From Bacteroidia bacterium (lineage in GTDB: Bacteria; Bacteroidota; Bacteroidia; Flavobacteriales; Flavobacteriaceae): a DNA stretch of 64,000 nucleotides. The stretch is taken from assembly GCA_030429455.1 (NCBI GenBank), contig JAUIFC010000004.1:1-64000 (forward strand), read 5' to 3'. The notes below the pieces were generated by a model, which did not search any database, was not told the DNA's origin, and saw nothing but the letters and a program-made list of their open reading frames with translations. Of the stretch, positions 8,735-40,900 are shown piece after piece (positions within the stretch are counted from its first letter, which is position 1; each line of letters starts with the position of its first letter). Both the position numbers and the translations under genes were made by a program.

Positions 8735-11482
8735 TCAAAATCTAAAATTATAAGTCACCGTTGGCACGGGAACTGTAAAAATTGAACTTTGAAAGGCTTT
8801 AACTTCTCCGTTTTCTGTCACAAAAAACGTCGAAAAAGGGTTATTTCTTCCGAGAACATTGTAAACAGAAATATTCCAAAAACTATGTGCAAACTTTTTT
8901 ATTTTGTGGTTGCCTTCAATATTAATGCCCAAATCGACACGGAAATAGTTAGGAATCCGAAATTGATTACGATCACTAAATACTACAAAAGTATTGCCGC
9001 CTTCTTGAAACTGTCCAACGGGAAAAGTGACAGGTCTTCCCGATTGGTAAATAAAATTACCTGAAAGGCTATACCTTTTGGTAAGTTTATAATTTAAAAT
9101 TAAACTCAATTCGTGAGGAATATCAAAATTTGCTGGGAAAAACTCTCCTCGATTTACACGCTCTTCAGAAAATGCACTATCGAGTCTGTAAAGTATTCGA
9201 GAAAACGAATAGCCTAAATATCCTGTCAGATCACCATCATTTTTTTTCAATAAAAACTCGACACCATAGGCTTTTCCATCACCTTGGAGGACTTCTGTTT
9301 CTACAAATTGGTTAAGTATCAGTTGTCCTCCAACCTTATAATCCAATGTATTATCCAAGTTTTTGTAGTACCCTTCAAGACTTAATTCGTACTTTGTGCC
9401 GTCCAAATTTTTAAAAACCCCTAATGAAAATTGTTCGCTTCGTTGTGGTTCTATAAAACGGTCGCTTAACTTCCAGGTGTCAATTGGCGAGGCTGTTGTA
9501 TTGTTGGACAACGTATGGATGTATTGTAACGTGCTGTTGTAAGCGGCTCTGATCGAAAATGTGGGGTCAAACAAATATCTTGCTGAAAGTCTTACTTCTG
9601 GTCCTGCATAGGTTTCTACAATTTCATTCTTTCCAAATTGGTCTACACCAATTACATTGCCTTCGGTTAATGGTGAATTAGGGCCATAAACTCTTTGTTG
9701 TGTTTCTCCTAAAAAATTGAACATAGAAAACCTTAAACCAGCACTTATGGATAAGTTTTCATTTAGCGTCCATTTGTCAGAAACATATAAAGCAGATTCC
9801 AAACCACGTTCTTGATTGACCTCAAATGGAATAACCGTAGATTCATCGCCCAATGGTTCTATTTGTCCAGGGTTTATGGTATAAAGTTTTGAGGACACAC
9901 CAAATTCTAAACGGTGTTTTTTATTTAAAAGATAATTTATTCCGTAACCAATTTCTGTTTCCTGCAAATCAAAGCCAAAGTCAAAGTTGTTGTATGCTGT
10001 CCCTTCGAACTCGATTCCAAACTCGTACCTGCTATGTGCAAGTTTTAAGTTGGATCTCGTATTGCTGTTTATTTTTCTGTCCCAATTGACGGAAGCCATT
10101 GTGTTGCTGTAAGAATACACCGAATCGACTGTAATATTAAAAACATCCTTACTGTGATAAGCGGTTATGCTTAAGTTGTTATTTTCGTTTATGTTGTGGT
10201 GATATTTTGCAATTACATCGTAAAAGGAAGCCTTGGAGTCCTTCAGGTTTGGATTATCCAGGTTTTTGAGAATCCAATCTGAATAGGTCGCCCTAACACC
10301 AACAATTAAACTTGATTTGTCTTTGACCACAGGCGTTTCTATCATTACATTGCCTGTAACAGGCCCTATGGACACTTCGCCTTTTAATTCTTCTTTGGAA
10401 GCTTCTTTTGTTGAAATGTCGAAAACAGAGGCCAACCTTCCGCCAAATTTTGCGGGCAAACTGCCTTTATAAATCTGTGCTGCATCCGAAGTAAAAGGAT
10501 TTATTGCTGAAAAAATACCAAAGAAATGTGTTGGATTATAGATAGAAGCACCATCCAGAAGAAACAAATTTTGATCTGCCTTTCCACCTCTAACATTAAA
10601 ACCTATGGCGCCTTCTCCAGCACTTGAAATTCCAGGCAATGTGGTCGCCACTTTTAGAATATCGCGTTCACCTAGAACCAAAGGTATGGTTTTAATTTGC
10701 TCTACTTCTATTCTAGAAACACCGGCTAAAGTTTGCCTAATATTGGCTTGTGCACTAGTGTTTATAAACACATCACTCAGTGCTTCGACATTCTCATTGA
10801 GCATAAAGTCGTATTGACCATCATCATAAATAATAAAACGTATTACAGAGGTTTGCATGCCCATGGCTTGGGCTGTTAAAACATGCTCTCCGTTTTTCAA
10901 CTCAATGCTGTAATTTCCTTCCATGTCCGTCGTCGTAAAGCGATTTGTTCCGTTTACTTTGATAGTCAAGCTACTAATAGCTTCGCCGGTTTTTGCATTT
11001 AAAGCTTTACCACTTAAGCTGTAAGTCGATTCGGTATTTGTTTCTTTTTGTTTTGAAATAACGACGGTCTCTATGTCATCTTGTGGATCTGTACTTATTT
11101 GAGTGTAAAACACTTGAGTTTCGGAATTCTCTTGTGGCTGAATGCTGTCTGTAAAAAAATACTTTTCAGGTAAATCTGTAATCAAGATACTTCCTAAAGT
11201 AAGTATAATTCTGTCATCCAAGATTTTAAAATTCAATGACGTCTCTTTTAGTAATTCTTGCAGAATAGCATCAATTCCTAAGTTTGTAACTGTTGTTGAA
11301 ATTACCTCATCTTCGACCCAAGCATCGATAAAGAATAGTTTGTAAGGTGTTTTTGAGTCAATTTCCAATAAGGCTTCTTTCAAACTTATATTGTTAAAAG
11401 AAAAGGTATATTGGATATCCTCTTGGCAATAGGCCAAAAGAGAAATAAAATACAGAAAACAATAGATGGTAAATTTTTGCAT
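8735..11482 (-). CDS. TonB-dependent receptor with STN and carboxypeptidase-like domains
   Basis: 915 residues: signal peptide (ending AYC), STN-like secretin/TonB domain (residues ~20-105, YTFSFNNISLKEALLEI), carboxypeptidase-regulatory-like domain (~153-235, SGKALNAKTGEAISSLTIKV), plug (~240-360, GFNVRGGKADQNLFLLDGA), then a 22-strand type barrel ending in the aromatic VTYNFRF. The STN domain may allow signalling to an anti-sigma factor, but none is adjacent. It imports a ligand across the outer membrane with TonB energy. A Fur-box-like palindrome upstream of the operon suggests an iron-related ligand (inference). Confidence 0.92.
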   Translation of the reverse strand: MQKFTIYCFLYFISLLAYCQEDIQYTFSFNNISLKEALLEIDSKTPYKLFFIDAWVEDEVISTTVTNLGIDAILQELLKETSLNFKILDDRIILTLGSILITDLPEKYFFTDSIQPQENSETQVFYTQISTDPQDDIETVVISKQKETNTESTYSLSGKALNAKTGEAISSLTIKVNGTNRFTTTDMEGNYSIELKNGEHVLTAQAMGMQTSVIRFIIYDDGQYDFMLNENVEALSDVFINTSAQANIRQTLAGVSRIEVEQIKTIPLVLGERDILKVATTLPGISSAGEGAIGFNVRGGKADQNLFLLDGASIYNPTHFFGIFSAINPFTSDAAQIYKGSLPAKFGGRLASVFDISTKEASKEELKGEVSIGPVTGNVMIETPVVKDKSSLIVGVRATYSDWILKNLDNPNLKDSKASFYDVIAKYHHNINENNNLSITAYHSKDVFNITVDSVYSYSNTMASVNWDRKINSNTRSNLKLAHSRYEFGIEFEGTAYNNFDFGFDLQETEIGYGINYLLNKKHRLEFGVSSKLYTINPGQIEPLGDESTVIPFEVNQERGLESALYVSDKWTLNENLSISAGLRFSMFNFLGETQQRVYGPNSPLTEGNVIGVDQFGKNEIVETYAGPEVRLSARYLFDPTFSIRAAYNSTLQYIHTLSNNTTASPIDTWKLSDRFIEPQRSEQFSLGVFKNLDGTKYELSLEGYYKNLDNTLDYKVGGQLILNQFVETEVLQGDGKAYGVEFLLKKNDGDLTGYLGYSFSRILYRLDSAFSEERVNRGEFFPANFDIPHELSLILNYKLTKRYSLSGNFIYQSGRPVTFPVGQFQEGGNTFVVFSDRNQFRIPNYFRVDLGINIEGNHKIKKFAHSFWNISVYNVLGRNNPFSTFFVTENGEVKAFQSSIFTVPVPTVTYNFRF

Positions 11483-11497
11483 TGAATTTCAATTATA

Positions 11498-12211
11498 TTA
11501 TTGGCCAATTATTTTTGACAATTGATGTATGGCAGAAATTAATTGTTTATCCTTTTGTTCTGTGTTCTTTGAATTCCATCTTAAATCCGATAAGATGCTT
11601 TTAGAATCAGGAAATCTAGAAATAAGGTCTTTTTTCTTTTTTACAACAAAAAAGTCGTCGTCAGTTAAAACGAAATACTCTGGTTTTACCGTCATAAATT
11701 TATAGTAAACCGAATTGTTTTTTAATACTTTCTTTACTTTCTTTTGGTGCTTTTTATAGAGTTTTAGTTGATTGATTTCAGTAAGAAGTTCATAAAACCC
11801 TGAAGGGGTTAGCTCTGAGTTTTTATTGCTTTGAATTCTTTCAAAATAAGTCTCATCAATTTTAAAGTTATCAATTTTTTCATTTAAAAGTAAAATTTGA
11901 TTTGCTCCACCTTCCTTAGAGATAACTTTAGCAATTAACTGATCTTCAAACAAATCGTACTTAATCGGAATGTCAAAATACTTTTGATTATCGTATGAAA
12001 TCCACCCTGATCTATAGGTCTCAACTTGAAAAAATCGATGTTGATCCTCCAACAAGTTATACGTATCAATAAATTCTACACCATTAAAAAGGCCAGAATT
12101 TTCAAGCCCTAAAGTATCATCGAACCAAGTAAATAAAGTTTCTTCTTGAGAACGAACATCAATACTGTTCAATAAGAAAAGGGCGAGAAAAAAAAGATTT
12201 GATTTTAACAT
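11498..12211 (-). CDS. Exported protein of unknown function, first gene of TonB receptor operon
   Basis: 237 residues with a signal peptide (MLKSNLFFLALFLLNSIDVRSQ). I do not recognise a domain. The protein is rich in aromatic residues (FTWFDDTLG, FFQVETYRSGW, YYKFMTVKPEYFVL) and has a very basic patch (KKHQKKVKKVLKN) in the second half. It precedes the receptor by 15 bp, so it is co-transcribed with it and probably acts in the periplasm or on the membrane in the same uptake process. Confidence 0.7.
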   Translation of the reverse strand: MLKSNLFFLALFLLNSIDVRSQEETLFTWFDDTLGLENSGLFNGVEFIDTYNLLEDQHRFFQVETYRSGWISYDNQKYFDIPIKYDLFEDQLIAKVISKEGGANQILLLNEKIDNFKIDETYFERIQSNKNSELTPSGFYELLTEINQLKLYKKHQKKVKKVLKNNSVYYKFMTVKPEYFVLTDDDFFVVKKKKDLISRFPDSKSILSDLRWNSKNTEQKDKQLISAIHQLSKIIGQ

Positions 12212-12267
12212 TAAAATACTTTACTCAACAAATGCGCACATAATTAGCTAAAATTTTTAATATATCG

Positions 12268-12280
12268 AATGATTATCATT
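12268..12280. promoter_or_regulatory. Fur-box-like palindrome upstream of TonB receptor operon
   Basis: AATGATTATCATT reads AATGATAATCATT on the minus strand, identical to the central 13 bases of the classic 19-bp Fur consensus GATAATGATAATCATTATC. It lies 57-69 bp upstream of the start codon at 12211, a normal promoter position. Iron repression through Fur is inferred from the match. Confidence 0.55.
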
Positions 12281-12627
12281 AAAAATATCGCTCAGGCTTG
12301 AATGCAAAGGTCGAAGATTGCTATTGGTTTTTGTAGAGTTACCTAGATCCTGCTGTTGTTTGCATTGAGTTGTCATATCCTTTCCTATCTTATACCTATA
12401 AAATTATTGCCATTTCTAGAATGATATTTCAAGCAAAAAAAGCTCTGCAAATCTTGACTAACTGAGCGTGCTTCTGCCTAGTAAATTAAACGCGCATTTT
12501 TGGGTATTCTAAACAACACTCAGTGTAATTTCCTTATTTACACCAAAACTTCAATCAATCCAAAGTACAAGAATTCAGCTTTTTTTTGAACTAAATTCAA
12601 AAACTAACAATCCCAAAATTGAAAGCT
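12281..12627. other. Gene-free spacer between two minus-strand operons
   Basis: No open frame of note on either strand. It holds the upstream part of the receptor-operon promoter region and the 3' flank of the DUF1080 gene. I see no clear terminator hairpin and no repeat. Confidence 0.5.
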
Positions 12628-22946: not shown

Positions 22947-24254
22947 ATGAGAAAGCAATTTTATAATTATCTTGGTATTTGTCTGTTCGGTATAATGTTT
23001 CAACCTGCTTTATCTCAAATTTCATTTCAGAATATTCAAACATTTACCTCTGAAGGTGTATACATTAATACAGATGTAGTACAAGCTAGTGAAGAACATG
23101 GAAAACATGGTTTTATTCATTTCGGTTATTTGCAAAGTATTTTGTCGAGCAGTGCTATTAAAACATATAAATCTACCGCTCAGAAACATAAAAGAGATTC
23201 TATCCATTCAAATCATAAATCTTTTGTAGAACGTTCTGCTAAAAGTCCATCAAAAACACCGCGTTTTTATCTTGGAAAGGATGGTAAAACATGTCTATGT
23301 CCAAATGCAAAATTTGGAGAATCTGGCACATTGACCATTAGTGGAATAAATAAAATGTTTACTAAAAGAACACGTGAAGAACTCAAAGCGCTAATCACAG
23401 CAAACGAAACCAATCCAGAAATTTCCTTGACATGCACTAGTGGCATAATGGACATGAGCTCTATGTTTTCATATTCAAAAAACTTTAATCAGGATATTTC
23501 AACTTGGGATGTATCTAATGTCAGTTCGATGAATGAAATGTTTAGCTTTTCAACATTCAATCGAGATATTTCAAACTGGGATGTGAGCAATGTCACTTCA
23601 ATGGAAAGGATGTTTAGATTTTCAGAATTCAATCAAAGTCTTGAGCATTGGAATGTTAGCCATGTAACAAATATGAGCGGAATGTTTAGTGGATCTCCTT
23701 TCAATCAGCCCATTGGTAGTTGGAACGTCTCCAATGTCACCAATATGAATAGCATGTTTGCAGGTTCATCTTTTAATCAATCACTTATGGATTGGGACGT
23801 TAGAAGTGTAACCGATATGGGCGCTTTATTTAGCAAATCTGCGTTTAACCAACCTATCGAAAACTGGAACGTCTCTAATGTTACTAATATGAATGGCATG
23901 TTTATTTGTTCTCCTTTTGACCAAAATATTGGTAATTGGGACGTTTCTAAAGTAACTAACATGACCAGTATGTTTGCCGGGTCGAGATTTAATAAGCCTA
24001 TAGGAAATTGGAATGTATCAAATGTCACCAAGATGAGTTACATGTTTTTAGCTTCTAAAAAGTTTAATCAAAATATCTCACAATGGAATGTGTGCAATGT
24101 TGACAATATGGAAAGCATGTTTAGGGGTTCGAAATTTAATCAAGACATCTCAAATTGGTGTGTAGAGAAAATATTTTCAAAACCCGTTGATTTTGATTTA
24201 AACTCTGCACTAGCTTCCTTTCCAGAATATCAACCTAATTGGGGATTATATTAG
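22947..24254 (+). CDS. Secreted DUF285 (BspA-like) tandem-repeat protein
   Basis: 435 residues: signal peptide (ending PALSQ), ~130-residue unique region, then about ten tandem DUF285 repeats of ~32 residues from residue ~165, each with the core FNQ-x-I-x-x-WDVSNVTNMxxMF. This family was described in mycoplasma and other surface proteins. A run of basic residues and the motif GKDGKTCLCPNAKFG precede the repeats. There is no T9SS C-terminal domain, lipobox or anchor, so it may remain periplasmic or be released. Function unknown; the repeats form a solenoid-like surface used for binding (inference). Confidence 0.85.
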   Translation: MRKQFYNYLGICLFGIMFQPALSQISFQNIQTFTSEGVYINTDVVQASEEHGKHGFIHFGYLQSILSSSAIKTYKSTAQKHKRDSIHSNHKSFVERSAKSPSKTPRFYLGKDGKTCLCPNAKFGESGTLTISGINKMFTKRTREELKALITANETNPEISLTCTSGIMDMSSMFSYSKNFNQDISTWDVSNVSSMNEMFSFSTFNRDISNWDVSNVTSMERMFRFSEFNQSLEHWNVSHVTNMSGMFSGSPFNQPIGSWNVSNVTNMNSMFAGSSFNQSLMDWDVRSVTDMGALFSKSAFNQPIENWNVSNVTNMNGMFICSPFDQNIGNWDVSKVTNMTSMFAGSRFNKPIGNWNVSNVTKMSYMFLASKKFNQNISQWNVCNVDNMESMFRGSKFNQDISNWCVEKIFSKPVDFDLNSALASFPEYQPNWGLY

Positions 24255-31158: not shown

Positions 31159-31686
31159 ATGACTATGTTATCAAAAACTGTTGAAAGTGCTTTAAATAAA
31201 CAAATTAGAATTGAAGCGGAATCATCTCAAGTGTATTTGGCGATGGCCGTTTGGGCCGAAGTAAAAGGCCTTGAAGGGATTTCAAATTTTATGTACGACC
31301 AGTCTGACGAAGAACGTGAACACATGCTTAAACTCATTAAGTTTGTAAATGAACGTGGTGGACACGCCCATATTTCTGAATTGAATGCGCCTGACGTTAG
31401 TTTTAATTCGTTTCAGGAAATGTTTGAAAAATTGCTTGAGCATGAAATTTTTGTATCTCAAAGCATTAATGAATTGGTTCATATTACTTTTGAAGAAAAA
31501 GATTATGCCACAAACAATTTCTTACAGTGGTACGTCTCGGAACAAATTGAAGAAGAAGCAACTGCCCGCACAATTCTGGATAAAATTAATATGATTGGTG
31601 ACGACAAAGGTGGTCTATACCTCTTTGACAGAGACATCCAACAAATAAATGTCCAAACAGCAGTAAATACACCTGCTGGAGAATAA
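31159..31686 (+). CDS. Ferritin (FtnA-like)
   Basis: 175 residues, or 173 if translation begins at the second ATG (MLSKTVESAL), which the position of the -7 box slightly favours. Four-helix ferritin with ferroxidase residues visible: E in RIEAESSQVYLAM, DEEREH (E and H of site A/B), E in LLEHEIFVSQ, and QWYVSEQIEEE. It oxidises Fe2+ and stores iron in a 24-mer in the cytoplasm. The C-terminal tail VNTPAGE coincides with a 27-bp sequence that reappears 1.8 kb downstream. A strong terminator follows. Confidence 0.96.
   Translation: MTMLSKTVESALNKQIRIEAESSQVYLAMAVWAEVKGLEGISNFMYDQSDEEREHMLKLIKFVNERGGHAHISELNAPDVSFNSFQEMFEKLLEHEIFVSQSINELVHITFEEKDYATNNFLQWYVSEQIEEEATARTILDKINMIGDDKGGLYLFDRDIQQINVQTAVNTPAGE
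31659..31685 (+). repeat. 27-bp direct repeat, copy 1 (ferritin 3' end)
   Basis: Twenty-seven bases at the end of the ferritin coding region recur at 33497-33523 with one mismatch. Together the copies bracket the segment with the two orphan genes at 32290-33334. Confidence 0.85.
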
Positions 31687-32129: not shown

Positions 32130-32272
32130 GGTTAGCGTGTGAAAGAACACGATATAGACCTATAAGTCAATCGCTAAAAGATTAGAACTAAAACAAAAAA
32201 TATACTGTTGAATCGCTTTTGAATAACAAATGGGAATAATTCCCAATCCAACAAATTTAAAGTTGGCTAACC
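32130..32272 (+). ncRNA. Candidate structured 5' leader before Cys-rich lipoprotein gene
   Basis: GGTTAGC at 32130-32136 is complementary to GCTAACC at 32266-32272 and could close a ~143-base element that ends 17 bases before the start codon. Inside are a hairpin CGTGT-gaaaga-ACACG (32136-32151) and a 15-bp palindrome TGGGAATAATTCCCA (32231-32245). Whether it folds or regulates is untested. Confidence 0.3.
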
Positions 32273-32289: not shown

Positions 32290-32865
32290 ATGAAAACTAA
32301 AAGTCTGAATTTATTGTTATTGACCCTAATATTTTTTGTGTTATTCTCTTGTACACATGAAAATAGAATTATTGATAATCAAGCTATAGTAAAAAAATAT
32401 GGCAACCTAAATATCAATTTATATAATCTAGGAATTTTTGAATATGGTATTGAAAAATTAAATGTCGACTACACAACAATTTTTAGAGAGGATAAAATAA
32501 TTGGATATGAAATGAAAACAGTGTTATTTGAAACAGAAGTTAGAGTAAATAATGACCATTCTGTTATTGAAGTAAATAGCGTGAATGATGAAAAAACGAA
32601 TATCTTTAATAGAGTACTAAATGAAAATGGTGAGTACAATTTAGAACCTTTAAATAATTCGCCAGTTGATAATTATCAAGTGAAAAATTTATCATCGAAC
32701 TGCAATCTCATTCTTGCGGGATGTGTTTCTGCTTGCGTATTAGGTACGGCTGCAATTGCAGCATCGGATGGTCCCCTACCTTTAATGGATGCTTTAGCTG
32801 CATCTTTTTATATAACATGCAATGCTAATTGTGCATTGGATCATCAAAATTGCGTTAACCAGTAA
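32290..32865 (+). CDS. Orphan lipoprotein with C-terminal Cys-rich hydrophobic domain
   Basis: 191 residues. Signal peptide with lipobox LFFVLFSC. Residues ~25-130 are polar and beta-rich; the last ~55 residues change character and hold six cysteines in a hydrophobic, Ala/Gly-rich stretch (NCNLILAGCVSACVLG, ITCNANCALDHQNC). I do not recognise a family. The two-part build, polar N-terminal part and compact Cys-rich hydrophobic C-terminus, recalls precursor proteins of disulphide-bonded bacteriocins such as halocin C8, where the C-terminus is released; that is only an analogy. It is followed 10 bp later by a small membrane protein gene. Confidence 0.65.
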   Translation: MKTKSLNLLLLTLIFFVLFSCTHENRIIDNQAIVKKYGNLNINLYNLGIFEYGIEKLNVDYTTIFREDKIIGYEMKTVLFETEVRVNNDHSVIEVNSVNDEKTNIFNRVLNENGEYNLEPLNNSPVDNYQVKNLSSNCNLILAGCVSACVLGTAAIAASDGPLPLMDALAASFYITCNANCALDHQNCVNQ

Positions 32866-32875
32866 AACATTTATT

Positions 32876-33334
32876 ATGATTAGAAAACTAACATCTTTTT
32901 TGTATAACAGTTCTAGTGTTAGAAAAAAATTTAATAATAAATTCTTTGTTGTCCCATCCAAAGTGATTTTTACTAACTCAGATGTAGACAATATTAAATC
33001 ATTAAATTGGCTTTTTTCTAAGCGTTTGAACTTAGTTATAAACGAAAATAAAATTATTTTAGGTAACAAACATTTTTTAATAGAAGATGTAAAAAATGTA
33101 GTATGTTATAAATTAAAATCAAACCTATTGTTTATAACTTATTCTGCATATAAAATTGAACTAAAAGATAAGCAGTTTATTTATTTAGGAGTAGATAAAT
33201 TTTACAACAGATTAAATGAATTATTAAATGTCAAAAACACTAAATTTTTGACTGAAAAGAAATCCTTCTTAAATCCTTCATTTCTGTTTGTTTTATGTTT
33301 AATTATGTTACTTATTTTATCCATTATAAGTTAA
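32876..33334 (+). CDS. Small membrane-anchored protein of unknown function
   Basis: 152 residues from the ATG at 32876 (MIRKLTSFL); the longer frame from 32822 overlaps the previous gene and lacks sense. The protein is basic and polar (many K, N, F) with a single C-terminal membrane helix (FLFVLCLIMLLILSIIS) and a middle region of strands (KLNLVINENKIILG, LFITYSAYKIELKDKQFIYLG) reminiscent of a PH-like small domain. A tail-anchored cytoplasmic domain is the likely topology. Co-transcribed with the Cys-rich lipoprotein; it could be its export helper or immunity partner (inference). Confidence 0.6.
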   Translation: MIRKLTSFLYNSSSVRKKFNNKFFVVPSKVIFTNSDVDNIKSLNWLFSKRLNLVINENKIILGNKHFLIEDVKNVVCYKLKSNLLFITYSAYKIELKDKQFIYLGVDKFYNRLNELLNVKNTKFLTEKKSFLNPSFLFVLCLIMLLILSIIS

Positions 33335-33398: not shown

Positions 33399-33524
33399 TT
33401 GGAACATAAAATAGAACTCATTGAAAGTTTTGGAAAAATTGCTGTCTTTTTGATGGTATTACTGTCTGTTTTTCTATTTACGGTAAAACTAAAGGTAGCA
33501 GTAATTACACCTGCTGGAGAATAG
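33399..33524 (+). pseudogene. Chimeric relic: AraC-type sensor N-terminus joined to ferritin tail
   Basis: A 41-codon frame from TTG 33399, preceded by a TACTTTTG promoter box at 33374-33381. Its first ~30 residues (EHKIELIESFGKIAVFLM, LLSVFLFTVK) resemble the start of multi-TM AraC-family regulators of flavobacteria, and its end (VITPAGE) is in frame with the ferritin C-terminus encoded by the 27-bp repeat. It is best read as a truncated gene fused to duplicated ferritin sequence; the AraC link is from memory of the family and uncertain. Confidence 0.35.
33497..33523 (+). repeat. 27-bp direct repeat, copy 2
   Basis: Matches 31659-31685 at 26 of 27 bases, including the codons for the ferritin C-terminus (TPAGE). 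The sequence after it is still weakly similar to that after ferritin (T-run, then ATTAC-like bases), suggesting a duplicated 3' end rather than a short chance match. Confidence 0.85.
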
Positions 33525-33553: not shown

Positions 33554-33592
33554 AAACTGCCTTTTTTCATAATCAAAAAAGGCAGTTTTTTT
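33554..33592. terminator. Bidirectional terminator between orphan pair and rnr
   Basis: Perfect 14-bp stem (AAACTGCCTTTTTT with AAAAAAGGCAGTTT) around a 7-base loop, flanked by A and T runs. Confidence 0.85.
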
Positions 33593-33652: not shown

Positions 33653-35866
33653 TTACACCATCTCAAAATCCAGCGTTCTCTTAATCAGGTCGGCTTTTTT
33701 TACTCTTACCTCTACTTCATCTCCTAAGCGGTATGCATCACCTGTACGTTTACCAACCACTTCGTAAGTGTCGGGATCAAAAATAAAATAATCGCCAGGG
33801 ATATCCTTAATTCTAATCATGCCTTCACATTTGTTGTCGATAATTTCAACAAATATTCCAAAGTCTGTTACGCCTGAAATCACTCCAGAAAATACTTCGC
33901 CTTCATGCTTTTGCATAAACTTGACTTGCATAAATTTGATAGAATCTCTTTCTGCATTAGATGCCAAATTTTCCATAGCGCTACAATGCTTGCATTTTTC
34001 TTCAAAAGCTTCTGGAGAAACATTGGCATTTCCATCCAAGTAATGTTGCAATAGGCGATGTGCCATGACATCTGGATAACGCCTGATCGGTGATGTAAAA
34101 TGAGAATAATAGTCAAACGCCAATCCGTAATGCCCAATATTTTCTGTGGAATAATAGGCCTTACTCATACTTCGTATGGTTAGTGTATCAATGAGGTTCT
34201 GTTCGTTTTTGCCTACAATATCTTTTAGCAATTTGTTGATAGATAGGCTTAAGCTTTTTTGATTTTTGTAATTTAATGCATATCCAAACTGGCCTATAAC
34301 TTTATCCAAAGCCATCAGTTTTTCCTCATTGGGCTCATCATGACATCTGTAAACAAAAGTCTTTTTGGCATCTTTGGATTTTGATTGTTTCCCAATAAAT
34401 TCCGACACTTTTCTGTTGGCCAACAACATAAATTCTTCAATCAATTTATTGGCATCTTTGGAAGTTTTAAAAAATACACCTTCAGGCTCGTTATTGTCAT
34501 CAAGATTAAAATTGACTTCAATTTTATCAAATGAAATTGCACCACTTTGGAAACGATTTGCTCTAAGATTCTTTGCTAATTTGTCAAGTCTTAAAATCGC
34601 ATCCTTTAATACTGAACTAATTTCATATTGATTTCCTGTGAGGGAAAACTCTTCTAAAATAACGTTGTCTTCGGTATCTATTACACATTGTGCTTCTTCA
34701 TAGGACAATCGTTTATCGGAATGAATCACAGTTCTTCCAAACCATTGTTTGTTGATTCTTGCCTTTTCGTCTAAAGTAAAAACAGCAGAAAATGTCAATT
34801 TATCTTCATGAGGATTTAAAGAACAAGCATCATTGGATAAGACTTCTGGCAACATGGGAACAACTCTATCCACCAAATAAATAGACGTTGCTCTGTCGTA
34901 AGCTTCCTCGTCCAAAATGGTATTTGGCTGAAGGTAATGCGACACATCTGCAATGTGAATGCCCACTTCAACTTCGCCATTGTCTAAGACTTTAAAACTC
35001 AACGCATCGTCAAAATCTTTTGCGGTCACAGGATCTATGGTAAATGTTAAATCCTGGCGCATATCTCTTCTGGACGCGATGTCTTTTGTGGTAATAGTCG
35101 TATCGATATTATTAGCAAAGTCTTCAACTTCCTTGGGAAATTCGCTTGGTAAATCGTATTGCGCTAATATGGCATGCATCTCTGTATGATGCTCTCCTGG
35201 TTTTCCAAATATTCGAATTATTTTTCCTTCAGGTGAATCTTTAAAAGCATCCCAATGCATAAATTCGACTAAAACCAATTCGCCATGTTTAGCTTTGTTA
35301 AAGTGTTTTTCGTCTACAAAAAAATCGGTTTGCATTTTAGAGTCTTGCATCACCACAAACCCGTAATTTCCAGAAATTTCTAATCGCCCAACAAATTTTG
35401 TCTTTTTGCGCTGTAGTATTTTTGTGATTTTTCCTTTAGATTTTCTTCCACTTGGCTTTAAGTCGGTGACATACACTTCTACAATATCACCATGAAAAGC
35501 TTGTAGTAAGTCTTTTTGTGGTACAAAAATATCTGTATCCAATCCTTCAATCACAATGTAAGCGTCGCCATTTTTCGTAATGTCAACCTTACCCGAAAAC
35601 ACATTTCCAGAATCATTAAACTTAAATGTACCTGCTTTGTTTTGTGTCAATTTCTTTTTTGAGACAAGAGTGCCTAAAGTTCTTATGACTGAATTTCTAG
35701 CTTTGTAATCTGCCTTCTTACCTACGACACCTTTTGAAACCAAAATGTCGATAATTTGGATGTACGACAAATTTTTATCTGGTTTTTTTCTAAATATTTC
35801 TAAAACCGCATCGGATAATCGACTTGAAATTTGACGTTTTTTTGGCGTTTTTCTTTTTTTTGACAT
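33653..35866 (-). CDS. rnr: Ribonuclease R
   Basis: 737 residues: N-terminal winged helix (LSYIQIIDILVSKGVVGKK), two cold-shock OB domains (about residues 70-225), the RNB catalytic domain with its acidic cluster (FTIDPVTAKDFDDALSF) and the signature HYGLAFDYYSHFTSPIRRYPD, then a C-terminal S1 domain (FSGVISGVTDFGIFVEI). A basic N-terminus (MSKKRKTPKKRQ) is typical. It is a processive 3'-5' exoribonuclease that degrades structured RNA and helps in quality control of ribosomal RNA. Monocistronic. Confidence 0.97.
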   Translation of the reverse strand: MSKKRKTPKKRQISSRLSDAVLEIFRKKPDKNLSYIQIIDILVSKGVVGKKADYKARNSVIRTLGTLVSKKKLTQNKAGTFKFNDSGNVFSGKVDITKNGDAYIVIEGLDTDIFVPQKDLLQAFHGDIVEVYVTDLKPSGRKSKGKITKILQRKKTKFVGRLEISGNYGFVVMQDSKMQTDFFVDEKHFNKAKHGELVLVEFMHWDAFKDSPEGKIIRIFGKPGEHHTEMHAILAQYDLPSEFPKEVEDFANNIDTTITTKDIASRRDMRQDLTFTIDPVTAKDFDDALSFKVLDNGEVEVGIHIADVSHYLQPNTILDEEAYDRATSIYLVDRVVPMLPEVLSNDACSLNPHEDKLTFSAVFTLDEKARINKQWFGRTVIHSDKRLSYEEAQCVIDTEDNVILEEFSLTGNQYEISSVLKDAILRLDKLAKNLRANRFQSGAISFDKIEVNFNLDDNNEPEGVFFKTSKDANKLIEEFMLLANRKVSEFIGKQSKSKDAKKTFVYRCHDEPNEEKLMALDKVIGQFGYALNYKNQKSLSLSINKLLKDIVGKNEQNLIDTLTIRSMSKAYYSTENIGHYGLAFDYYSHFTSPIRRYPDVMAHRLLQHYLDGNANVSPEAFEEKCKHCSAMENLASNAERDSIKFMQVKFMQKHEGEVFSGVISGVTDFGIFVEIIDNKCEGMIRIKDIPGDYFIFDPDTYEVVGKRTGDAYRLGDEVEVRVKKADLIKRTLDFEMV

Positions 35867-37976: not shown

Positions 37977-40900
37977 AAAACCAGACCATGACCAATTTTA
38001 CTTTTAACAGTCCATGCTCAACCTTATGTAAAGAGGTCAAAAAATATTTCGCCAGTTTCGCAATCGTTTGCGTACTGTTACATACAACCGATGCATTTGC
38101 TCAAGACACAAGAATAAGTTTAAACCTCTCGCAAGTTAATCTCAAAGAAGTTTTTGAAGAAATAGAATCCAAAACAAACTTCAAATTTATTTATAAAGAC
38201 AAAATAATTAACAATTTAAACAGATTTGATATAAAAACCGAAAACGAAGCCGTCAGTTCTATACTGAATAAGCTTTTAAAAAACTTTAATATTCAATACC
38301 AAAGTGTTGGTAATCAAATCGTACTTAATCCTATAACAAATCAAACTACTAAAGATCAATCCTCAGTCAACACACTTAACAGCAATTTTGTAGTAACAGG
38401 CAGTGTAAAAGACGAGAATGGCTTAGCCTTACCCAATGCTAATGTTATTGAAAAAGGTACTTTAAACGGTACTATTTCAGATTTTGATGGAAATTTTAAT
38501 TTAACACTGAAAAAAAGTCCTGACGATGCCATTATTGTTTTTACCTATGTAGGCTACATCACTCAGGAAATTCCTTTAAATGGATTGGACACGCTTAATG
38601 TTGTTTTAATTCAGGAAGAAGCAAGTTTGGAAGAAGTCGTCGTCGTAGGCTATGGCAGAAAAAAGAAAGTGACTGTCACCGGCTCTGTCGCCGATATAAA
38701 GACCGAGGACATCCTTGAAACCAAAACAGCAAATCTAGCCAATAATTTACAAGGTAGGATAGCTGGTCTTACCATAAATACCAGAGGCGGTGAACCTGGA
38801 GCAGATCAAGTAGACATTCGTATTCGAGGTATTGGAACTACTGGCAATACTCAACCGCTTTTTGTCATAGATGGTGTGCCAAATAGAGGTAGTTTTGAAA
38901 GACTTAACCCAAATGACATAGAAAGTATTTCTGTTTTAAAAGACGCTTCTGCAGCTATATACGGAGCTCAAGCAGCAAATGGAGTTATACTTGTTACCAC
39001 CAAAAGAGGCAAAAAAGGAAAACCAACCGTAAGCTACGATGTTAACTATTCCATATCTCAACCTACAAGGCGTCCAGAATTAATGAATGCCTATCAGTAC
39101 CTCACTTGGATAGATGAAATAAACGATAGAAACAACCGTCCTACAGAATTCACAGATATCATAAGACAATACAGGGATGGCAGCATTGACAGAACGCAAT
39201 GGGGCGACACAGATTGGTGGGATGTTGCGACAGACGAATGGACGCCACAGATACAACATGCCTTAAATGTAAGCGGTGGCAGCGAAAATGTTCAGTATTT
39301 TTTATCGGGACAATACCTTAACCAAGATGCAATTTACATTGGAGATGCATATGGGTATCAACAATATAACATCAGATCTAATATCGATGCCAGAATAAAC
39401 AAAAACCTAAAAATAGGTTTTGACCTAGCTGGTCGTTTTGGAAATACAGAAAGACCAACAGTAAGCACCGATCAACTGGTAAGACAAATATTTGTGCAAC
39501 GTCCATTCGAATTTCCATATTTCGATAATGGATTGATACGAAAAACCAGTAATGGAAATCCCATAAGCCTCACAAATGGGGATAGCGGAACTAGAGATAC
39601 TAAAACGAAAAAATTTGATTCAAAATTTTCTTTAAGATGGGATTTACCCTTTATCACCCAAGGTCTGTACATAGATACTTATGCCACTATAGATTACTAT
39701 ACAACAACAAGAAAAGACCTATCAAGACCTTTTGATCAATATGAATTTGATGAAGAAACAGGTGATTATGTCAATCTTAGATTTCAAACAGGAAACGTTA
39801 ACCTATTCCAACAGTTTACAGAAGAGCTAAATCAGTTATACCATTTTAAAATAGGTTATGACAAAAGTTTTGGAAAACATAACATCAGTACATTTTTTGC
39901 TTATGAACAATTTCAACAAGAAGGGGAATTTTTCTTTGCTAGTCGACAGAATTTAATAACCGATGCTTTGCCTTTTTTATTTACCGGAGAAGACGAAAAT
40001 CAAAACAACGGTGGAAGAGGCTTTCAAAATGCACGGCAAAATTATTTTGGAAGATTCAATTATAATTTTGATGACAAATACCTTCTAGATGTTACCATGC
40101 GTTACGACGGTTCATCCAATTTTGCTCCCGGAAATCGTTTCGGTTTTTTTCCTGCAGCATCATTTGGTTGGCGATTGTCTAAAGAAGCGTTTTTTCAAAG
40201 TAATCTTATAAGCGAACTTAAGGTAAGAGCTTCAGCGGGTTTATTAGGGAATGATCGTGTAAACAACTTTCAATTTTTGCAGATTTACAATATTGGCAAT
40301 TCCTATATTTTTGGTGAAGATCCACAACGTCAAAATGGGCTTACTCCTAGTACTGTTCCAAACCCAGACATCACTTGGGAAACAGCCCAGAAATACAATT
40401 TCGGTATAGACTTTATCCTTAGAAAACGTTTCCTAGAAGGAAATATTGATGTCTTTTATGAAAGACGGTCTGACATCCTAGCGCCTCGAAATGCTTCAAT
40501 TCCTGTTTATGCTGGACTTACTTTACCTGACGAAAATATTGGTGAAACATCCAATCAAGGTATCGAAATTCAATTAAGGCATCAAAACAGAGTTAGTGAT
40601 GATTTTTCTTACACTATTGGTGGTCAATTTTCTTTTGCTGAAAGTAAAATAATATTTATCGACGAAGCTGAAAACATTCCTGAATGGCAAAGACGAACCG
40701 GAAAACCAATAGATTTTATTTTACTATATCAGGCAGATGGCATTTATAACAACCAAGAGGAAATAGACAACTCTGCGTCTTTTCCAGATGCCATTCCTGG
40801 CGATGTACGAATAGTAGACCAAAATGGAGATGGCGTGATTAATGAAAAAGACCAGATTCTCCTAGAAAATTCACCTACACCAAGAATTGTATATGGCTTT

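Follow-up and report, generated by a model that had tools for sequence, protein, structure and literature searches.

Gene pair and surroundings

The window, a stretch of 64,000 nt from a Flavobacteriaceae genome (4.1 Mb, 86% complete), carries two co-directional genes, flanked on the left by a ferritin gene (31159-31686) and on the right by an RNase R gene (33653-35866) that runs towards them. Both ORFs had been singled out in an earlier note on this DNA, and both are present at the locus. The features discussed below are the following:

31659-31686, + strand: direct repeat of 28 nt, left copy; 3' end of the ferritin gene with its stop codon
32231-32245, no strand assigned: inverted repeat of 15 nt (7-nt arms, one base between), 44 nt before the lipoprotein start codon; predicted as a terminator-like site on the - strand
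32290-32865, + strand: lipoprotein precursor, 191 aa; signal peptide, lipobox Cys21, polar middle and hydrophobic C-terminal cysteine domain
32701-32862, + strand: residues 138-191, the C-terminal domain; C-x6-C-x3-C-x10-DGPLPLMD-x9-C-x3-C-x6-C, a predicted hairpin of helices that turns at DGPLP
32876-33334, + strand: small membrane protein, proposed immunity protein or partner, 152 aa; polar part followed by one C-terminal membrane helix (134-151)
33497-33524, + strand: direct repeat of 28 nt, right copy (26/28), beyond the gene pair
33554-33588, + strand: terminator-like hairpin in the gap that separates the cassette from the convergent RNase R gene

The inverted repeat at 32231-32245 is a possible operator. 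An attC-like site upstream was considered and dropped, its arm order being reversed (by eye), and none of three Rfam matches up to E 0.5 exceeded the gathering score. A Pfam scan of ferritin and nine other neighbours (22947-43093, with a 1117-aa ORF at 37988 left out) recognised no dedicated bacteriocin transporter or maturation protease beside the pair. The nine neighbours comprise an Lhr helicase, GreA, an M14 carboxypeptidase, a DUF285 protein, RNase R, a sigma factor, FecR, SusD and one unmatched protein. Gene content of this kind, SusD and FecR for example, points to the Bacteroidota. The DUF285 protein (22947-24254, 435 aa) contains four stretches of this repeat family (E 1.9e-114), which is named after Mycoplasma.

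The 1045-nt region of the pair has a G+C content of 25.6%, compared with 35.1% for the window, and 1.0% of 1260 windows were as low. In addition, a second copy of the final 28 nt of ferritin lies beyond the pair, identical at 26/28 positions, the best of 200 shuffles reaching 20/28. Island borders had been claimed for this region, and the low G+C content and flanking repeat agree with the claim. Together, they suggest an acquired cassette in the window genome, and the repeat is possibly the footprint of an insertion at the gene end. The last ~12 residues of three close congeneric ferritins (84–87% identity) differ from those of the window ferritin, as would be expected if incoming DNA had replaced the end of the gene. 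No empty site was found among these three ferritin loci, whose neighbours differ; a fourth ferritin (42%) was left out.

For the second gene, the start at 32876 (10 nt past the first stop codon, 152 aa) is preferred over that at 32822, which overlaps the lipoprotein gene. The structural model of the protein has a mean pLDDT of 43.8, with values below 50 for residues 1-131 and block means of 71–92 at the predicted membrane helix, residues 134-151. This single C-terminal helix agrees with the tail-anchored protein that had been described as following the lipoprotein. The protein (P0002) falls into no Pfam or NCBIfam family above cut-off and has no match to SdpI up to E 10 (Pfam). No relative of the gene was found in the genomes, plasmids and viral contigs searched; six weak non-self genome matches were obtained, of which L079-L082 were left unread, and L077 and L078 were rejected as relatives after reading of their ORFs.

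The cysteine-rich C-terminal domain

The lipoprotein begins with a signal peptide and lipobox Cys21, both read by eye, and has cysteines at positions 138, 145, 149, 177, 181 and 188, which places six within the last 54 residues. The core of the domain (residues 144-181, 38 residues) contains two charged residues, no Lys and no Arg, and has a GRAVY of +1.05, compared with -0.41 for the middle of the protein. The cysteine count and GRAVY values agree with the earlier description of a hydrophobic C-terminal domain with six cysteines, unlike the polar N-terminal part. A cysteine/DGP pattern, written from the window sequence itself, occurs once in the window and in 0/100 shuffles.

Database searches placed the lipoprotein in no Pfam or NCBIfam family above cut-off, and neither PHROGs nor PADLOC nor the PDB sequences (best E 1.4 and 0.073) gave a credible match. 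No description of the domain was found in the literature searched, a coverage that excludes most subscription papers, and DGPLP as a search word returned no paper title on such a protein. AlphaFold2, run on a three-row alignment, predicted strands in the middle of the lipoprotein with low confidence, and two helices (134-159 and 164-190) with a turn at DGPLP. The mean pLDDT of the model is 42.8, with block means of 56–66 for residues 141-190 and 43 for residues 131-140. If the hairpin is right, Cys149/177, Cys145/181 and Cys138/188 would lie opposite each other and could form a ladder of up to three disulfides.

Distribution of the domain

A whole-lipoprotein search of 100 relatives returned 15 genomes at E <=0.1, the window genome included, the other 14 matches being weak. 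One of these weak matches, in genome G091, is a lipoprotein of 197 residues with the same motif at its end. Across 395 genomes of the order, a two-sequence C-terminal profile gave matches at E <=0.002 in the window genome, G091, G062 (E 1.7e-7), G706 and G069, and the motif is carried by three of the 395. The G069 match (L005) lies in a cas-type operon by eye and was rejected on reading of the ORFs. That in G706 (L074:1039-2013) is, by eye, an RHS-like protein in which a AASDGPLPIMDAVAISY segment that lacks cysteines precedes the C-terminal part, a possible shared membrane-insertion motif.

The window, G091 and G062 proteins have in common C-x3-C-x10-DGPxPxxD-x9-C-x3-C, with identical spacing, at the end of lipoproteins of ~200 residues, and they come from three families of the order. 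Pairwise domain identities amount to 13–15 of 37 ungapped positions, while the maximum of 300 shuffles per pair is 11–12; the whole-length identity to the window protein is 18% and 27%, domain included. The G091 and G062 proteins possess the two inner cysteine pairs only, the outer 138/188 pair being present in the window protein. Profile searches with the C-terminal domain, as the earlier note had proposed, added G062 to G091 and assigned the domain to no Pfam or NCBIfam family above cut-off.

Beyond these three proteins, the 26 congeners lack the domain, the two-sequence profile finding the window genome only among 27 of the genus, and among ten genomes of the G091 family it found G091 alone; the G062 family is represented by one genome. 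In the phylum sample (n=395), the same profile gave the window genome and five weak matches, of which four (L020-L023) were rejected on reading of their ORFs and one lacks the motif. In the class sample (n=395), a three-sequence profile gave the window genome and one motif-less match. These samples, from genus to phylum, overlap, so that the counts are not additive, and distant members may escape profiles built from so few sequences (two or three). The weak lipoprotein matches L011 and L013 were likewise rejected on reading of the ORFs, and L002, L003, L006-L010, L012, L014-L018, L024 and L088 proved to lack the motif when 117 records were scanned for it.

A pattern scan of genome contigs yielded 47 stretches, most of them from Burkholderiales records by title, and none was accepted: 40 have stops inside the motif and seven are open frames of 48–80 residues, rich in Arg and Pro. 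This negative is weak because the pattern needed an NTN codon between the prolines and was thereby blind to the G062 type (Ala at this place), and because G091 was not returned although it fits the pattern, this genome thus being either absent from the collection or passed over. Plasmids held no relative of the window domain, the G062 protein, the G091 protein, the second gene or the G706 segment. Furthermore, no relative was found in phages, with the window domain as query, or in viral contigs.

Gene neighbourhoods in related genomes

In G062, the lipoprotein gene is followed by a gene for a 105-residue protein with about three membrane helices by eye, and then by one for a small lipoprotein. 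The follower overlaps the lipoprotein gene or, if its second ATG is used, lies 25 nt away. A small membrane protein thus stands closely 3' of the lipoprotein at two of the three loci (window and G062), and the two followers are unrelated. The conserved pairing of both genes that the earlier note had envisaged was therefore not found, the second gene having no relative and the followers differing. Immediately 5' of the G062 lipoprotein gene and co-directional with it lie genes for an S24 peptidase (UmuD-like) and a UmuC-like protein (by eye; L083 8155-9884), and SOS control of the lipoprotein is conceivable. The G+C content of the locus, 28.9%, is hardly below that of its surroundings (30.3%).

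SdpB helps to process the cannibalism toxin SDP, to which SdpI confers immunity. In G091, the lipoprotein gene (L084:7041-7634) lies 3.5 kb upstream of SdpB and SdpI on the same strand. SdpB (11138-11998) matches TIGR04033 with 192.5 bits (cut-off 178.4), and SdpI (11971-12315) matches PF13630 with 42.4 bits (cut-off 28.2). The order on this strand is lipoprotein, thioredoxin-like ORF, 142-aa secreted ORF, 393-aa lipoprotein, thioredoxin-like lipoprotein, 173-aa lipoprotein, SdpB and SdpI, with a DCC1-like thiol oxidoreductase further along. Apart from SdpB and SdpI, these genes were named by eye or, for the first thioredoxin-like ORF, from a Redoxin match below cut-off; the second was named from its CxxC motif and belongs to no family. 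The lipoprotein gene has a G+C content of 30.5%, moderately below its surroundings (34.1%), and a flanking repeat comparable to that in the window is present in neither G091 nor G062.

A search for SdpB in 395 genomes, aimed at its usual company in the phylum, gave a match at E 1e-8 in 12 and above cut-off in 6. Of 13 matches, the seven strongest were followed into their neighbourhoods, and each of these (7/7) has one or more SdpC-like ORFs as well as an SdpA-like ORF. An SdpC HMM was built from 12 SdpC-like ORFs of seven Bacteroidota clusters, picked by a self-written motif that was devised after the clusters had been seen and was later loosened. With this HMM, the window lipoprotein scored E 5.2, and the G091 and G062 members gave no match up to E 10. 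The best values at the G091 locus and in the window, E 0.32 and 0.24 for the SdpC profile and E 5.1 and 0.34 for the SdpA profile, fell on other ORFs, and none is credible. The whole contig, window included, yielded no SdpA-like ORF, and SdpB was not found in the 86%-complete window genome. In G062, there is no SdpB above cut-off; 1.7 Mb from the lipoprotein locus lies a different membrane protein (L090 662-2154), which matches SdpB with 21 bits, below the cut-off, and has a companion of 206 aa.

G091 accordingly combines SdpB with SdpI, while no SdpA or SdpC is recognisable there. Within the run of genes described above, the family member was the sole secreted protein noticed, on reading, with a hydrophobic C-terminal domain, and it may be the substrate of SdpB.

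Comparison with known peptide systems

Halocin C8, an archaeal peptide rich in cysteines, is cut from the C-terminal part of a precursor whose N-terminal part is unlike it, and it has another cysteine pattern. The likeness to halocin C8 drawn in the earlier note found no support, as no such family matched up to E 10 in Pfam and NCBIfam, which may contain no halocin C8 model.

SdpC offers a closer comparison. According to PMC6818787, it is a secreted protein of 203 residues whose toxin is the C-terminal hydrophobic domain C141-S182, and the C-terminal domains of its homologues are unlike each other. The window family shares the secreted precursor of ~200 residues and the hydrophobic C-terminal domain, which in SDP, by the same text, begins at a cysteine, and SdpB and SdpI lie near the G091 member. 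A secretion signal (by eye) followed by a C-terminal hydrophobic domain, as expected of SdpC, is present in the window lipoprotein. However, the family lacks the N-terminal domain of SdpC (with its SGEELFRGIFF-like motif in Bacteroidota clusters), it has a paired CX3C hairpin whereas SDP is a single hydrophobic stretch, and the accompanying sdpA and sdpB are absent from the window, G091 having SdpB only. Judged by the profile test made, the lipoprotein family is no SdpC homologue, and it is not filed under SdpC because that profile did not recognise it.

Plant alpha-hairpinins, as presented in PMC11591084, are helix-loop-helix peptides of the form CX3C-X4-20-CX3C with two disulfides. The C-x3-C ... 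C-x3-C arrangement is shared, as a matter of layout only. Nevertheless, 27 residues separate the pairs in all three proteins, compared with the 4–20 given there, and the window core is hydrophobic, without Lys or Arg, and carried on a bacterial lipoprotein.

Interpretation and alternatives

The preferred reading, to which a rough probability of 0.45 is given, is that the lipoprotein is the precursor of a disulfide-stapled, membrane-attacking antibacterial hairpin peptide and that the second gene provides immunity. The C-terminal domain would fold into two antiparallel helices, stapled in the periplasm by nested disulfides 149-177 and 145-181 (in the window protein also 138-188), while the polar carrier part would keep the hairpin at the membrane or cell surface. 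Upon cleavage or direct contact, the hairpin could insert into the membrane of a neighbouring cell, and protection of the producer would come from the small membrane protein encoded alongside in the window and G062, and from SdpI in G091. The mode of action would resemble that of SdpC/SDP of Bacillus subtilis.

This reading is favoured because a fixed cysteine domain sits on poorly aligning lipoproteins, as for a carrier with an active part, because the layout is that of SdpC, and because the G091 lipoprotein lies upstream of SdpB and SdpI. The small membrane protein encoded right after the lipoprotein in the window and G062, the low G+C content and flanking repeat, which fit an acquired cassette, and the scattered occurrence argue in the same direction. 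Against it stand the presence of SdpB beside the domain in no more than one of three genomes, the failure of the SdpC and SdpA profiles (seven Bacteroidota clusters) to match, the unrelated followers, the lack of a recognised bacteriocin transporter or maturation protease among the window neighbours scanned, a core without Lys or Arg, unlike many cationic antimicrobial peptides, the low structure confidence, and the near-background G+C content in G062 together with the missing flanking repeats. Of the peptide effector and partner system proposed in the earlier note, the general form is thus favoured by the recurring C-terminal domain, the SDP-type genes in G091 and the followers at two of three loci, whereas the specific pair is not conserved.

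The main rival takes the hairpin as a disulfide-stabilised structural or anchoring module of an ordinary envelope lipoprotein, such as a sensor, assembly factor or chaperone, with the membrane protein as its partner and nothing toxic involved; it is the strongest of the alternatives, if still rather unlikely. Two thirds of the protein lie outside the hairpin and are partly predicted, at low confidence, as beta strands, and such a role would also suit the two genomes without above-cut-off SdpB and the window pair with no bacteriocin-type transporter recognised nearby. It sits poorly with a distribution that is rare and scattered (the window genome only of 27 in the genus, 3/395 in the order, and the window genome only of 395 in the class, barring the motif-less match) and with N-terminal parts that are unlike each other, neither of which looks like housekeeping, and with SdpB and SdpI in G091. 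Chance resemblance, or genes decaying without present function in a low-G+C insertion, is distinctly improbable: both frames are intact and closely spaced, the signal peptide, motif and terminator are in place, and the motif is kept across three families of the order, even though the second gene has no relative, the G+C content is very low and a partial copy of the ferritin end lies alongside.

Two further explanations concern the chemistry or delivery of the hairpin. It could be a membrane-insertion module common to polymorphic toxins, so that the lipoprotein delivers nothing else and represents a remnant or a minimal contact-dependent toxin. The AASDGPLPIMDAVAISY segment in G706 (two-sequence profile E 2.9e-4) points this way, but it is a single case of some 23 matched residues without cysteines, in a protein with no Pfam family up to E 1 and with no relative of the segment in plasmids, and the probability is considered small. 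Least probable of all is an enzyme-modified sactipeptide of the huazacin/thuricin Z type, with thioethers in place of disulfides. The NCBIfam huazacin model NF037972 is the top match of all three proteins, at the same place, with E 0.00052 for the window domain alone and 0.0041, 0.088 and 0.022 for the three whole proteins, and the cysteines of thuricin Z, according to PMC8172795, are also four residues apart and joined by nested thioethers. These matches nonetheless reach 17.1 bits (window), 20 bits (window domain), 12.8 bits (G091) and 14.8 bits (G062), far below the cut-off of 35. Moreover, no radical SAM family occurs among ferritin and the nine neighbours scanned with Pfam (22947-43093, the 1117-aa ORF at 37988 left out), each of the two predicted helices carries cysteines, and the signal of a lipoprotein differs from the leader of a RiPP.

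Returning to the antibacterial precursor, a broader proposal, doubtful as a whole, is that the three proteins represent a new Bacteroidota class of antibacterial peptides, a disulfide-laddered DGPxP hairpin on a lipoprotein with exchangeable carriers and immunity proteins, in which one lineage would have taken over SdpB and SdpI from SdpC. If the precursor reading is right, the order would gain a membrane-active peptide that is encoded by a gene and has a build not met with in the literature searched, and an SdpB locus with a likely non-SdpC substrate would make it possible to ask what SdpB recognises. Should the structural module hold instead, the domain would still be a new compact cysteine-stapled one, but a minor finding.

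Among the SdpC-like genes themselves, one locus of G342 (L106 8284-12021) contains five in tandem, accompanied by a single SdpA and a single SdpB. Their hydrophobic C-terminal domains vary, so that the locus looks like an array of peptide variants.
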